Below are positions 9,385-21,732 of a stretch of DNA of 64,000 nt, one piece after another. The translations under genes were made by a program, and so were the position numbers. This DNA comes from Synergistaceae bacterium (GTDB lineage: Bacteria > Synergistota > Synergistia > Synergistales > Aminobacteriaceae): NCBI GenBank assembly GCA_017439345.1, contig JAFSJJ010000039.1, forward strand, positions 1 through 64,000. The letters are read 5' to 3'. Numbering within the stretch: the stretch's first letter is position 1; every line of letters starts with the position of its first letter. The notes below the pieces were generated by a model. It saw only the letters and a program-made list of their open reading frames with translations. It searched no databases and was not told the origin of the DNA.

Positions 9385-10419
9385 TTAGCGTGTTATGAAT
9401 CTCTTCAATAGGGTCAATGCAGTAACACACTTGCGGAGTAATATAATCATTGGCTGAAAGATATACATCAAGTGAGGGCATTTATCGTAGCCGGTGAATA
9501 AGAGCTTGTTAATTCGGCGGGTTCGACTCCAGAGTTCGAGACAGTATTTGCTGTTACGAAAATTTTTTACTTTGTCCCTGAAAGACTCAAAAAGTTTTAT
9601 CTTGATTCGTATTGAAATGTTATCAGGAAACAAGAACATACATAAATGCTTTAAGTATTGATACTGCATTAAATCATTATATTCTTGAGAGTTCACTTGA
9701 GATTTTATGTAGTCTTCAAGATGACTGAGAGTTTTTGCCATTTCGAGAAGCCTCTCATCGCCCTTTCTTGAGACTCCTTCGTTATTGCTTCTATAATAGT
9801 AATTAACTGTCTTAGAGAACACTACGAACGGTTTATGAAGTCCAAATGAGCAGTTAGTCAACAGGTCTTCAGGCATGGAAATATCTGCGTAATCAAGATA
9901 ACCTGCATTAATAACAAATTCACGGCGGTATAACTTAGGGAACACGGAATGAAATATTTTGTCACTCATCATGAGTTCAAAGAATTCATAGCCCTTGCAT
10001 GATGTATATTTCTCGTAGCCTCCTGCTTCGTGAAAGCTGCCGTCACTATTCTGAAAAAAGAATCTGCTCGCAGCAATGTCAACCCGTTCACTATGAGAGT
10101 CAAGCTCACTGACAAGATTGCTCAACATGTCAGGATTAAGCCAGTCATCTCCGTCAACGAAGCAGATATACTCGCCCTGAGCTCCCCTGACTCCTGCCTT
10201 TCGCGCACTGACACAGCCGCCGTTCTCTTTGTGAATTATCTTGACACGCGAGTCTCCTGAAAATTTCTGTGCAGCTTGAAGCGTGTTATCTCTTGAGCCG
10301 TCATCGACAAATATTAACTCGAAATTATTATAGTCCTGAGCAAGCACTGACTCTAAACACTGTGAAATATATTGCTCGATGTTGTAGCCTATCACGATTA
10401 CTGATATTCGGGGACTCAT
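9385..10419 (-). CDS. Family 2 glycosyltransferase, copy A
   Basis: An inverting GT-A glycosyltransferase of 344 residues that probably adds a sugar to a surface glycan. Visible motifs are the N-terminal strand ISVIVIGYN, VDDGSRDNT near residue 38 and the metal/nucleotide-binding DGD at 89-91 followed by DWLNPDM. The C-terminal 100 residues are variable and basic. It is a close paralogue of copy B at 10602-11651. The first 110 or so residues are nearly identical and the rest diverges. Each copy has its own promoter, heptanucleotide array and leader. The acceptor and sugar donor are unknown. Confidence 0.9.
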   Translation of the reverse strand: MSPRISVIVIGYNIEQYISQCLESVLAQDYNNFELIFVDDGSRDNTLQAAQKFSGDSRVKIIHKENGGCVSARKAGVRGAQGEYICFVDGDDWLNPDMLSNLVSELDSHSERVDIAASRFFFQNSDGSFHEAGGYEKYTSCKGYEFFELMMSDKIFHSVFPKLYRREFVINAGYLDYADISMPEDLLTNCSFGLHKPFVVFSKTVNYYYRSNNEGVSRKGDERLLEMAKTLSHLEDYIKSQVNSQEYNDLMQYQYLKHLCMFLFPDNISIRIKIKLFESFRDKVKNFRNSKYCLELWSRTRRINKLLFTGYDKCPHLMYIFQPMIILLRKCVTALTLLKRFITR

Positions 10420-10483
10420 GAGGCGAACCCCCTGACTTGATGAGAAGAGAAAACGTTATTACTTAGTGAAGAGCATAATAATA

Positions 10484-10522
10484 CGATAACCGATAACCGA
10501 TAACCGATAACCGATAACCGAT
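10484..10522 (-). repeat. Heptanucleotide tandem repeat array in the leader of glycosyltransferase A
   Basis: CGATAAC on the plus strand (GTTATCG on the coding strand) is repeated 5 full times plus 4 bases over 39 bp with no mismatch. It starts right after the -10 box and forms the 5' untranslated leader, 65 bases before the ATG. In-frame stops between array and gene show that it is not translated as part of the protein. Copy B has 7.6 units. Confidence 0.95.
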
Positions 10523-10548
10523 TGTAGCGCGTTATTTATCATTGTCAA
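10521..10548 (-). promoter_or_regulatory. Promoter of glycosyltransferase A
   Basis: On the minus strand TTGACA (10543-10548), a 16-base spacer and TACAAT (10521-10526). The last bases of the -10 box run into the first repeat unit. The same arrangement is found for copy B. Confidence 0.8.
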
Positions 10549-10601
10549 GCCCCTTTCTGATTGAATTTACGGCATTATATCACAAAGGAGCCTTGCGCTA
10601 T

Positions 10602-11651
10602 TTAAACGTGAGAAGTTATGTACCTATGCAGAACCCTCTTCAATCGAATGAACATGCTAAAGAACTTGCGGTTTAATATAATCACAGGCTCAAGGATATA
10701 CATTAAATGAGGACACTTGTCATAGCCTATGAGTAAGAGCTTGTTGGCAAGTCGGGTTCTGTTCCAAGGTTCGAGACAGTATTTGTTGTTCCTGAAGCCT
10801 TGTAATTTTTCACGGATAAAACTAGCAGCTTTGATTTTTGACTTGTTTGATATATTTCTAGAGTAAAGAATAAACTGTAAATTATGCAACCATAGATATT
10901 GTATCAAGTCGTTATATTTGTCATGGACTCTTGGATGAAAATATTCCTCGACATACTCAAGAGATTTAAGCAGATCTAAACAAAGTTCGTTAATTCTTCT
11001 AGTGGCTCCCTTCTCGTTGTACCTGTAGTAATAATTTACTGTCTTAGAGAACGCAGCAACAGGTTTGTGAAGAGCAATACATAAATTCATTACAAAGTCT
11101 TCGGCCATCGCTGTAGGACGATAATCAAAGAAGTCTGCATTAATTATAAATTCCCGTCTATAGAGTCTTGGAAACACTGAATGCCATATTTTTTCAGTAA
11201 TCGTTAAATCAAGATATTCATATTGATGACATATTGATATTCCTTTGTAGTTCTCAGCCTCATAAAAAGTTTTGTCCGGATTCTGAAAGAAGAAATTACT
11301 CACAACAATATCAACGCGTTCATCATGAGAGGTAAGTTCATTAACGAGATTGCTCAACATGTCAGCATTCAGCCAGTCATCACCGTCAACAAAGCAAATA
11401 TATTCACCCTGAGCTTCCCTGACGCCTGCTTTTCGTGCACTGACACAGCCGCCGTTCTCCTTGTGAAGTATCTTGACTCGTGAGTCTCCTGAAAATTTCT
11501 GTGCTTCCTGAAGAGTATTATCTCTTGAGCCGTCATCGACAAATATTAACTCGAAATTGTTATAGTCCTGAGCAAGCACTGACTCTAAACACTGTGAAAT
11601 ATATTGCTCGATGTTGTAGCCTATCACGATTACTGATATTCGGGGACTCAT
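10602..11651 (-). CDS. Family 2 glycosyltransferase, copy B
   Basis: A 349-residue paralogue of the neighbouring enzyme, with the same N-terminal GT-A fold: ISVIVIGYN, VDDGSRDNT and DGDDWLNADM near residue 89. The last 200 residues differ in detail (for example ATRRINELCLDLLKSLEYVEE), suggesting a changed acceptor. Nucleotide identity with copy A is near-perfect from the leader through the first 170 or so bases of the gene and then falls, as expected if gene conversion keeps the 5' ends alike. It lies between the nuclease gene and copy A, all on the minus strand. Confidence 0.9.
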   Translation of the reverse strand: MSPRISVIVIGYNIEQYISQCLESVLAQDYNNFELIFVDDGSRDNTLQEAQKFSGDSRVKILHKENGGCVSARKAGVREAQGEYICFVDGDDWLNADMLSNLVNELTSHDERVDIVVSNFFFQNPDKTFYEAENYKGISICHQYEYLDLTITEKIWHSVFPRLYRREFIINADFFDYRPTAMAEDFVMNLCIALHKPVAAFSKTVNYYYRYNEKGATRRINELCLDLLKSLEYVEEYFHPRVHDKYNDLIQYLWLHNLQFILYSRNISNKSKIKAASFIREKLQGFRNNKYCLEPWNRTRLANKLLLIGYDKCPHLMYILEPVIILNRKFFSMFIRLKRVLHRYITSHV

Positions 11652-11712
11652 GAGGCGAACCCCCAGACTTGGTGAGAAGAGAAAACGTTACTTAGTGAAG
11701 AGCATAATAATA

Positions 11713-11765
11713 CGATAACCGATAACCGATAACCGATAACCGATAACCGATAACCGATAACCGAT
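11713..11765 (-). repeat. Heptanucleotide tandem repeat array in the leader of glycosyltransferase B
   Basis: The same CGATAAC unit as at 10484 is repeated 7 full times plus 4 bases over 53 bp without mismatch, directly after the -10 box of the promoter. It has exactly two units more than copy A, while the bases on both sides are almost identical, so the number of units has changed since the duplication. Confidence 0.95.
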
Positions 11766-11791
11766 TTTAGCGCGTTAATTATCATTGTCAA
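11764..11791 (-). promoter_or_regulatory. Promoter of glycosyltransferase B
   Basis: On the minus strand TTGACA (11786-11791), a 16-base spacer and TAAAAT (11764-11769), matching the copy A promoter except in the -10 box. The duplicated segment extends upstream to about 11836. Confidence 0.8.
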
Positions 11792-11851
11792 GCCCCTTTC
11801 TGATTGAATTTACGGCATTATATCACAAAGGAGCCTGAGAAAATTTTTGCT

Positions 11852-19714: not shown

Positions 19715-20947
19715 ATGACAGAGAAGAAAGGCAAGGCAGTATTAGCTTATTCAGGAGGTCTTGACACTTCAGTTGCAGTAATGTGGCTCACTGAACAGGG
19801 CTATGACGTAATCACAATGACGGCAGATGTAGGCCAGAAGGACGTTGACTTACAGGCTGCGAAATCAAAGGCTCTTCACAGCGGGGCAGTCAAGGCGTAT
19901 ATATTCGATCTCAAGAAAACTTTTGTAGAGAATTACGTTTATCCTTCACTTAGAGCTAATGCAATGTATCAGGGAACTTACCCGCTGGTATCGGCTTTAT
20001 CTCGTCCGTTAATCGCAAAGACCCTTGTTGATATAGCTAACAAAGAAGGAGCTGTCGCAGTGGCTCACGGTTGTACAGGCAAGGGGCAGGATCAGGTCAG
20101 AATCGAAGTATGCGCAACGGCTCTGAATCCTAAAATCAAAGTATTAGCTCCTGTTAGAGACTGGCACTTCACCCGCGAGGCCGAAATAGAATACGCAGCC
20201 AAACACGGTATCCCGGTCAAGGCAACAGCAAGCTCACCCTACAGCACAGATGATAACTTGTGGGGACGTTCAATAGAGTGCGGACTTCTCGAAGACCCAT
20301 GGAACGAACCTCCCGAAGACGCTTATGAGATGACATCGAATCCCCTTGAAGCTCCTGACAGGGCAGAATTTATAGAAATCAGCTTTGAGGGCGGTATACC
20401 TGTAGCACTTAATAACGAGAGAATGCACGGAGTCGAGTTGATTCAGAAATTAAACAAGATTGCAGGCAGTCACGGAGTCGGACGCGTTGACATGATCGAA
20501 GACAGACTTGTCGGCTTCAAATCGCGTGAAGTCTATGAATGTCCCGGTTCAACAGTATTGCTTGCTGCCCATAGAGCAATGGAGACTCTTACACTTGATA
20601 AGCAGGTTCTCAAGACGAAGCGCGAACTCGAAACGAGATTTGCAGAATTAACTTACGAGGGCTACTGGTTCTCGCCGTTGCGTGATGCAATTAATGCTTT
20701 CATGAATGACACTCAGCGTTATGTGAACGGTACTGTTAAAATGCGTTTATTCAAAGGTCAGGCAGTAGTCAGGGGACTCAAGACATCAAAGAGCATTTAC
20801 AGGCACGATTTAGCAACTTACTCAGAGGGCGATGCGTTCGATCACTCCGCAGCAGTAGGCTTTATAAACATCTGGGGGCTTCCCGTTAGGACATGGACAT
20901 CAACTTGGCCGAGACAGGACGAAGCAGAAATTCCGATTGAAGCGTAG
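19715..20947 (+). CDS. argG: Argininosuccinate synthase
   Basis: A 410-residue cytoplasmic enzyme that joins citrulline and aspartate with ATP to give argininosuccinate in arginine biosynthesis. The PP-loop ATP motif AYSGGLDTSVAV is at about 10-21, and the conserved GCTGKGQDQVRIE and SPYSTDDNLWGRSIECG stretches are present. Length is normal. GAAGGAA lies 10 bases before the ATG. No other arginine gene is in the window, so it appears to be an isolated transcription unit ending in the hairpin at 20961-20992. Confidence 0.97.
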   Translation: MTEKKGKAVLAYSGGLDTSVAVMWLTEQGYDVITMTADVGQKDVDLQAAKSKALHSGAVKAYIFDLKKTFVENYVYPSLRANAMYQGTYPLVSALSRPLIAKTLVDIANKEGAVAVAHGCTGKGQDQVRIEVCATALNPKIKVLAPVRDWHFTREAEIEYAAKHGIPVKATASSPYSTDDNLWGRSIECGLLEDPWNEPPEDAYEMTSNPLEAPDRAEFIEISFEGGIPVALNNERMHGVELIQKLNKIAGSHGVGRVDMIEDRLVGFKSREVYECPGSTVLLAAHRAMETLTLDKQVLKTKRELETRFAELTYEGYWFSPLRDAINAFMNDTQRYVNGTVKMRLFKGQAVVRGLKTSKSIYRHDLATYSEGDAFDHSAAVGFINIWGLPVRTWTSTWPRQDEAEIPIEA

Positions 20948-20960
20948 TAATAAAAATTTT

Positions 20961-20992
20961 GCGGCTCTGAGTGATTCGGAGTCGCTTTTATA
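20961..20992 (+). terminator. Intrinsic terminator of argG
   Basis: GCGGCTCTGA (20961-20970) pairs with TTCGGAGTCGC (20975-20985), including wobble pairs, followed by TTTTATAT. Confidence 0.7.
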
Positions 20993-21003
20993 TAATTAGG
21001 GGG

Positions 21004-21033
21004 TTGACAACATTGAAAGAATTTGTGTATAAT
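21004..21033 (+). promoter_or_regulatory. Promoter-like boxes overlapping the start of the DUF1919 gene
   Basis: TTGACA (21004-21009), an 18-base spacer and TATAAT (21028-21033) match the consensus exactly. The heptanucleotide array begins at 21034, the next base. The proposed TTG start (21013) lies inside the spacer, so if this promoter is used the transcript would begin within the array. The layout mirrors that of the two glycosyltransferase promoters. Confidence 0.55.
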
Positions 21034-21732
21034 CTTGCGTCTTGCGTCTTGCGTCTTGCGTCTTGCGTCTTGCATCTCTTATGCCGTGTTATAAACTTTA
21101 TTCCGCGTAAAATATTAAATCGAAGCAGAAAAATTTATCATGACCGGCTCATTAAATCCAATAGGAAACGACTCGCGAACAAAAATTTTTCGATAATTGC
21201 TAAGGACTGCGCCGGTACTTTAATACTTCATGAACTTGGCCTGCGTTTTGACACTCCTACAATAAACTTATGGTTCAATGCAAAAGATTTCGTGAAATTC
21301 TGCTCTAACCTGAAATATTATTTTTCTCAAGAAGTTATAGAGCTTCCTGAAGCAGACTCAGGCGTAAACTATCCGGCAGGGACTCTTGGCACTGGTGAAG
21401 AGAGAATAACTATATACTTCATGCACTATAAAAATTTTCAGGAAGCAAGATCAAAATGGGACGAACGCAAACAGCGCATTCACTGGGATAATTTATATTT
21501 CATTATGACCGATGGAGAAGGTTGCAATGAAAGACTTGCGCAGGAATTCGACTCTCTTACGTATGAACATAAAGCCTTATTAACTTACCGAGAATTAAAC
21601 GGCATTAAATCAACAGTGAAATTTGCTTTGAATACTCCTATTGAGAGGGGAAATTTATTTGCTTATAAGTCTAAAATTTCTCTAGGGCGCGCTATTGACG
21701 ATTGGGATTATGTATCTTTTCTGAATTCATGA
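21013..21732 (+). CDS. DUF1919 family protein, probable surface-glycan gene, with coding repeats
   Basis: About 240 residues, most matching DUF1919, a family found in capsule and exopolysaccharide loci with no proven activity (FSIIAKDCAGTLILHELGLRFDTPTINLWF and later IHWDNLYFIMTDGEGC). No ATG, GTG or TTG occurs in frame between the array and the domain, so translation must start at or before the array. TTG at 21013 has AGGGGG 9 bases ahead; GTG at 21025 and TTG codons inside the array are alternatives. The 7-bp array is then translated as LASCVLR repeats. Loss or gain of one unit would shift the frame. As sequenced, the frame is open. Confidence 0.75.
   Translation: MKEFVYNLASCVLRLASCVLHLLCRVINFIPRKILNRSRKIYHDRLIKSNRKRLANKNFSIIAKDCAGTLILHELGLRFDTPTINLWFNAKDFVKFCSNLKYYFSQEVIELPEADSGVNYPAGTLGTGEERITIYFMHYKNFQEARSKWDERKQRIHWDNLYFIMTDGEGCNERLAQEFDSLTYEHKALLTYRELNGIKSTVKFALNTPIERGNLFAYKSKISLGRAIDDWDYVSFLNS
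21034..21075 (+). repeat. Heptanucleotide tandem array in the DUF1919 gene
   Basis: CTTGCGT is repeated five times exactly and a sixth time as CTTGCAT, 42 bp in all. It begins at the base after TATAAT and lies inside the open frame. Three units make 21 bases, so it encodes a 7-residue repeat, and any other change in number alters the frame. Confidence 0.95.

Follow-up and report, generated by a model that had tools for sequence, protein, structure and literature searches.

Tandem-repeat arrays behind promoter-like boxes as probable frame-based switches of surface-glycan genes in an uncultured Synergistales genus

The DUF1919 gene in the analysed window, a 64-kb stretch of contig JAFSJJ010000039.1 from a Synergistaceae bacterium, carries a heptanucleotide array in its start region, directly behind a TTGACA-TATAAT box pair. 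Two further arrays precede paired GT2 glycosyltransferase genes in the same window, and the arrangement recurs in 82 distinct cassettes from 18 genomes of the window's genus of uncultured Synergistales. Judged from sequence comparison, these arrays very probably act as frame-based phase-variation switches, of the neuO type where the array lies inside the gene and of the Streptococcus gallolyticus pil1 type where it lies in a leader. The first-pass annotation had proposed translational phase variation for the DUF1919 array, and the comparison strongly supports this. The genus-wide occurrence of the cassette, its two further copies in the window and the leader mode of some arrays go beyond that proposal.

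A cassette shared across the genus

The cassettes have a common order of Shine-Dalgarno (SD) sequence, TTGACA, usually a start codon in the spacer, TATAAT, tandem array and gene, and the genes behind them are mostly surface-glycan or surface-protein genes. An SD-like motif lies 5' of TTGACA in 62 of the 82 cassettes, and the spacer of 56 contains an ATG. Relative to the end of the -10 box, the arrays begin at -3 to +4 nt, and 37 of them start exactly at this point. Their periods are 7 (60 cassettes), 5 (17), 8 (3), 4 and 13 bases, and none is a multiple of three. A sense stop codon occurs in one of the 47 distinct units, compared with 15 units in antisense; this single case is the 13-mer array at L080:2027-2093. 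The layout and periods, like the frames, leader stops and hairpins described below, are direct readings of the sequence.

Some members of the collection were identified by means of the promoter pattern itself, and box strength was therefore judged solely on a sample selected by gene family, comprising 118 GT2 or DUF1919 loci of the genus. These contain 47 arrays of at least three copies, 33 of which have an adjacent TTGACA-N16-18-TATAAT with at most two mismatches in 12 positions, versus 20 of 3000 random positions at the same threshold. The remaining 14 arrays are second halves of interrupted arrays, lie at a contig edge (one case) or are located elsewhere.

The window's own genome has at least 16 such putative switches, and members of the family occur in 18 or more genomes of the genus. 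A TTGACA-N-TANAAT search of the own genome gave 36 matches, 11 or 12 of them (our count) directly followed by an array, and many more array-bearing matches were found with this pattern in five related genomes. Arrays of other units stand at the equivalent position in further GT2 and DUF1919 loci, both in this genome and elsewhere in the genus. Some contigs of the own genome also have a tandem array at one end (L065:1-26, L070:1-22, L072:1-21), which suggests that the assembly breaks at arrays and that the cassette count is therefore a lower bound.

Since slippage can generate simple repeats anywhere, the arrays could in principle be neutral microsatellites that lie near promoters by chance. 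This explanation is very improbable given the fixed array position behind the -10 box and the strong bias towards glycan and surface genes. In addition, each of the 16 SD-TTGACA-ATAAT matches found in ten genomes has repeat units behind it, in one case barely two, and no array was seen after 70 TTGACA/TATAAT promoters in 12 genomes from other families of the order. Among phage contigs, 17 pattern matches were found, none with a convincing array behind it. Four of the 13 promoters classed as controls have an SD and appear by eye to be contracted cassettes.

Several individual loci deserve mention. L066, L098, L105 and L109 combine an SD and TTGACA/TATAAT with only about 1.3-1.9 units; they are seemingly contracted and may be locked. 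The spacer CAAAAATTATGGCTGTG, or nearly the same sequence, stands before unrelated genes in L086, L097 (G027) and L111 (G031), as if spread by duplication or recombination.

Arrays within genes and in leaders

Two modes can be distinguished, with two contig-edge cassettes assigned to neither. The array of 47 cassettes is part of a long reading frame, whose products include GT2, DUF1919, GT8, acyltransferase and large surface proteins. Where a usable start is present, the number of further units needed to bring start and gene into frame is 0, 1 or 2 in a ratio of 15:14:13, a spread that compares different loci in one genome per species and not one locus over time. This even distribution over the three frames, together with the absence of periods divisible by three and the near absence of sense stops, backs the reading of the arrays as frame switches.

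The other 33 cassettes, two of them in the window, have the array in a short leader open reading frame (ORF). For 32 of them there is a frame that ends between -9 and +13 of the gene start, 22 times as an ATGA or TAATG overlap. When the leaders were shuffled, a coupled frame was obtained in a mean of 8.8 and a maximum of 16 cases, compared with 31 of 32 observed. An earlier coupling control based on other genes in the loci was high (0.49) because operons were included, and the shuffled-leader control is the cleaner one. A terminator-like hairpin lies between array and gene in 13 of the 32 leaders with a located gene start (one leader cassette without a coupled start was left out), versus 31 of 400 control regions; four of the leader hairpins were folded and have z values of -3.4 to -5.6.

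According to the proposed mechanism, the transcript would begin upstream, usually at an extended -10 about 25-40 nt 5' of TTGACA, and would bear the SD and a start codon sited in the TTGACA-TATAAT spacer. The ribosome would then translate across the array, where slippage by one unit (7, 5, 8, 4 or 13 bases) would shift the frame. For in-gene cassettes, including DUF1919, one frame in three would yield the full protein. For leader cassettes, including both GT2 cassettes of the window, one frame would lead the ribosome to a stop that overlaps or adjoins the gene start and so permit re-initiation; if a terminator hairpin intervenes, this frame would probably also prevent termination. We infer from the sequences that slippage takes place in cells, that transcription starts at the upstream -10 and that expression alternates between ON and OFF.

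The repeats might instead be retained for the peptide they encode as an N-terminal extension, as the link between neuO repeat length and enzyme activity could suggest (PMC13001214). We consider this scarcely credible for the present arrays: homologous genes have different units (47 in all), the copy number is out of frame in many cases, and the peptide of a leader cassette does not belong to the enzyme.

The paired GT2 genes

The two GT2 cassettes of the window (9385-11651) carry the unit CGATAAC on the plus strand, ATCGGTT in sense. Their homology starts just 5' of the upstream TGATATAAT, and the flanks are nearly identical. One array is longer than the other by exactly two units, and the sole indel in the leaders comprises 3 bases. 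As assembled, the leader stop of the gene at 9385-10419 lies 42 bases early, and by computation two added units restore the overlap. On sequence grounds, this pair is the best single piece of evidence for the proposed frame switch. The hairpin scan detected no terminator hairpin in either of the two window leaders, for which translational coupling alone could suffice. The 5' ends of the two genes are near-identical and divergence is found further in, as after duplication or conversion.

The DUF1919 gene

Exact repeat scanning found five copies of CTTGCGT at 21034-21068, followed by the variant CTTGCAT at 21069-21075, and Tandem Repeats Finder (TRF) calls the array at 21033-21077 (6.4 copies, 97%). 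The composition of the array, the TTGACA-N18-TATAAT abutting it and its translation within the gene start had all been noted in the first-pass annotation and were borne out. The DUF1919 domain (PF08942, E 1.6e-56) begins at about 21127. As was also claimed there, the interval 21076-21127 contains no ATG, GTG or TTG in the DUF1919 frame, and translation must therefore begin at or before the array. The likeliest start is TTG 21013, nine bases 3' of AGGGGG and in frame at the assembled 5.86 copies. In-frame TTG codons are also present within the array, so that a start inside it may be used. TTG 21004 was set aside as a start since the SD would abut it. A 77-aa minus-strand ORF (20842-21075) that begins in the array has no Pfam match and was taken as chance.

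Exact arrays of at least five copies are limited in the window to this one and the two CGATAAC arrays, and CTTGCGT serves as an array unit only at this locus within its own genome. All five DUF1919 genes of the genus with intact 5' ends have an array. A search of GTDB contigs with its protein yielded two relatives; no array was found in the stretch read of the Bacteroidales relative. The features of the three window cassettes are listed in Table 1.

Table 1. Features of the DUF1919 cassette and the two GT2 cassettes in the window
Feature	Position	Strand	Basis or remark
Heptanucleotide array (CTTGCGT)5 + CTTGCAT	21034..21075	+	exact repeat scan and TRF
TTGACA, -35-like box	21004..21009	+	sequence; N18 to TATAAT
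TATAAT, -10-like box	21028..21033	+	sequence; abuts array (from 21034)
SD-like AGGGGG	20998..21003	+	sequence
Likeliest start codon TTG, within TTGACA-TATAAT spacer	21013..21015	+	in frame with DUF1919 at assembled copy number
DUF1919 gene, array in frame	21013..21732	+	ON at assembled copy number if TTG 21013 is the start
Candidate upstream -10 (TATAAT)	20991..20996	+	weak evidence at this locus; nearer the SD than in other cassettes
Terminator-like hairpin and T run, 3' of argG, upstream of DUF1919 cassette	20961..20989	+	-16.2 kcal/mol, z -3.9
Extended -10 (TGATATAAT), GT2 cassette 1, upstream	10574..10579	-	sequence
TTGACA, GT2 cassette 1	10543..10548	-	sequence; leader ATG 10542-10540
Array, sense unit ATCGGTT, 5.57 copies, cassette 1	10484..10522	-	repeat scan and frame computation; assembled leader out of frame (OFF)
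GT2 glycosyltransferase gene following the leader, cassette 1	9385..10419	-	PF00535, E 5.4e-35
Extended -10 (TGATATAAT), GT2 cassette 2, upstream	11817..11822	-	sequence
TTGACA, GT2 cassette 2	11786..11791	-	sequence
Array, sense unit ATCGGTT, 7.57 copies, cassette 2	11713..11765	-	repeat scan and frame computation; leader in frame, ON as assembled
45-codon leader ORF, cassette 2	11648..11785	-	sequence; TGA overlaps GT2 start (ATGA)
GT2 glycosyltransferase gene following the leader, cassette 2	10602..11651	-	PF00535, E 1.4e-34

Promoters and the boxes over the start codon

In 48 of 82 cassettes, compared with 48 of 492 control windows and 67 of 5000 random windows, the upstream region contains an extended -10 (TGnTANAAT), which mostly ends 24-40 bases before TTGACA. 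The translated RNA is probably made from this element. RNA from TTGACA/TATAAT would begin within the array and would have neither SD nor start codon.

The near-consensus boxes, with a spacing of 16-18 nt and an array at most 4 nt from the -10 end in every cassette, are nevertheless what would be expected if the array acted in transcription, where it would form the first transcribed bases and its length would tune promoter escape or mRNA level, as has been suggested for the hmw promoter repeats. We regard this as unlikely: periods never divisible by three, the scarcity of sense stops and the openness of the leader frames speak for translation, and the copy number leaves the -35/-10 spacing unchanged because the array sits 3' of the -10. 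The suggestion in the first-pass annotation that transcription could be affected as well, through the abutting promoter, found no support: the box spacing is independent of array length, and transcripts from that promoter would lack a start codon.

Some observations weigh against the frame switch that we favour. A pure frame switch needs no consensus promoter over the start codon, and the role of the conserved TTGACA/TATAAT there is unexplained by this model. In 11 of 79 cassettes, the spacer lacks an ATG, GTG or TTG that is usable by the rule applied; at least three of these (L052, L156 and L173, with unit CAAGCCA) have a frame that is open from the TTG of TTGACA. The sample, with its one genome per species, holds no repeat-length variation within a species. 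Finally, the upstream TATAAT at the DUF1919 gene stands only 7 bases before TTGACA, too near the SD to convince, and the transcript start is therefore uncertain at this locus; its mRNA possibly comes from argG read-through or another start.

One tentative and rather doubtful suggestion is that TTGACA/TATAAT takes part in the switching itself and is not an ordinary promoter. It could hold a sigma-bearing RNA polymerase just 3' of the leader start, where a sigma-dependent pause would let the ribosome catch up, or it could keep the first array units melted and so raise the slippage rate. Sigma-dependent pausing is a known phenomenon, which for these boxes is only hypothesised. In the GTCAA class of arrays (L101, L107, L114, L068), the unit and the TTGAC of the -35 box are reverse complements; RNA pairing is possible, or the match may be due to chance.

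Relation to known systems

In Escherichia coli K1, neuO undergoes phase variation through (AAGACTC)n and the full protein is made only in the fitting frame (PMC13001214). The in-gene cassettes resemble it in that a surface-glycan enzyme has a heptanucleotide array near the 5' end of its coding region. However, neuO is a single prophage gene, whereas dozens of genes, many units and TTGACA/TATAAT over the start codon are seen here. In S. gallolyticus pil1/pil3, it depends on the frame of a leader-ORF repeat whether the ribosome gets as far as a terminator hairpin ahead of the gene (PMC3894217). In the leader cassettes, too, the repeat belongs to a leader ORF that precedes the gene, but pil1/pil3 are pilus operons with GCAGA only, while the present cassettes serve many glycan genes, have leader stops overlapping the gene start and show hairpins in some leaders only. 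In Haemophilus influenzae hmw1A/hmw2A, 7-bp repeats about 70-100 bp before the gene modulate transcription (PMC2651432). These are similar as heptanucleotide arrays near surface-gene promoters, although the genus evidence favours translation through the array. The open-access literature yielded no description of this composite cassette, of its abundance per genome or of the conserved boxes over the start codon, and no report of such switching in this phylum.

The cassettes indicate a large set of random ON/OFF switches of surface glycans in an uncultured gut genus. Since a single layout serves both in-gene and leader control, the two modes can be compared directly, and the boxes over the start codon pose a testable puzzle on the interplay of transcription, translation and repeat slippage.
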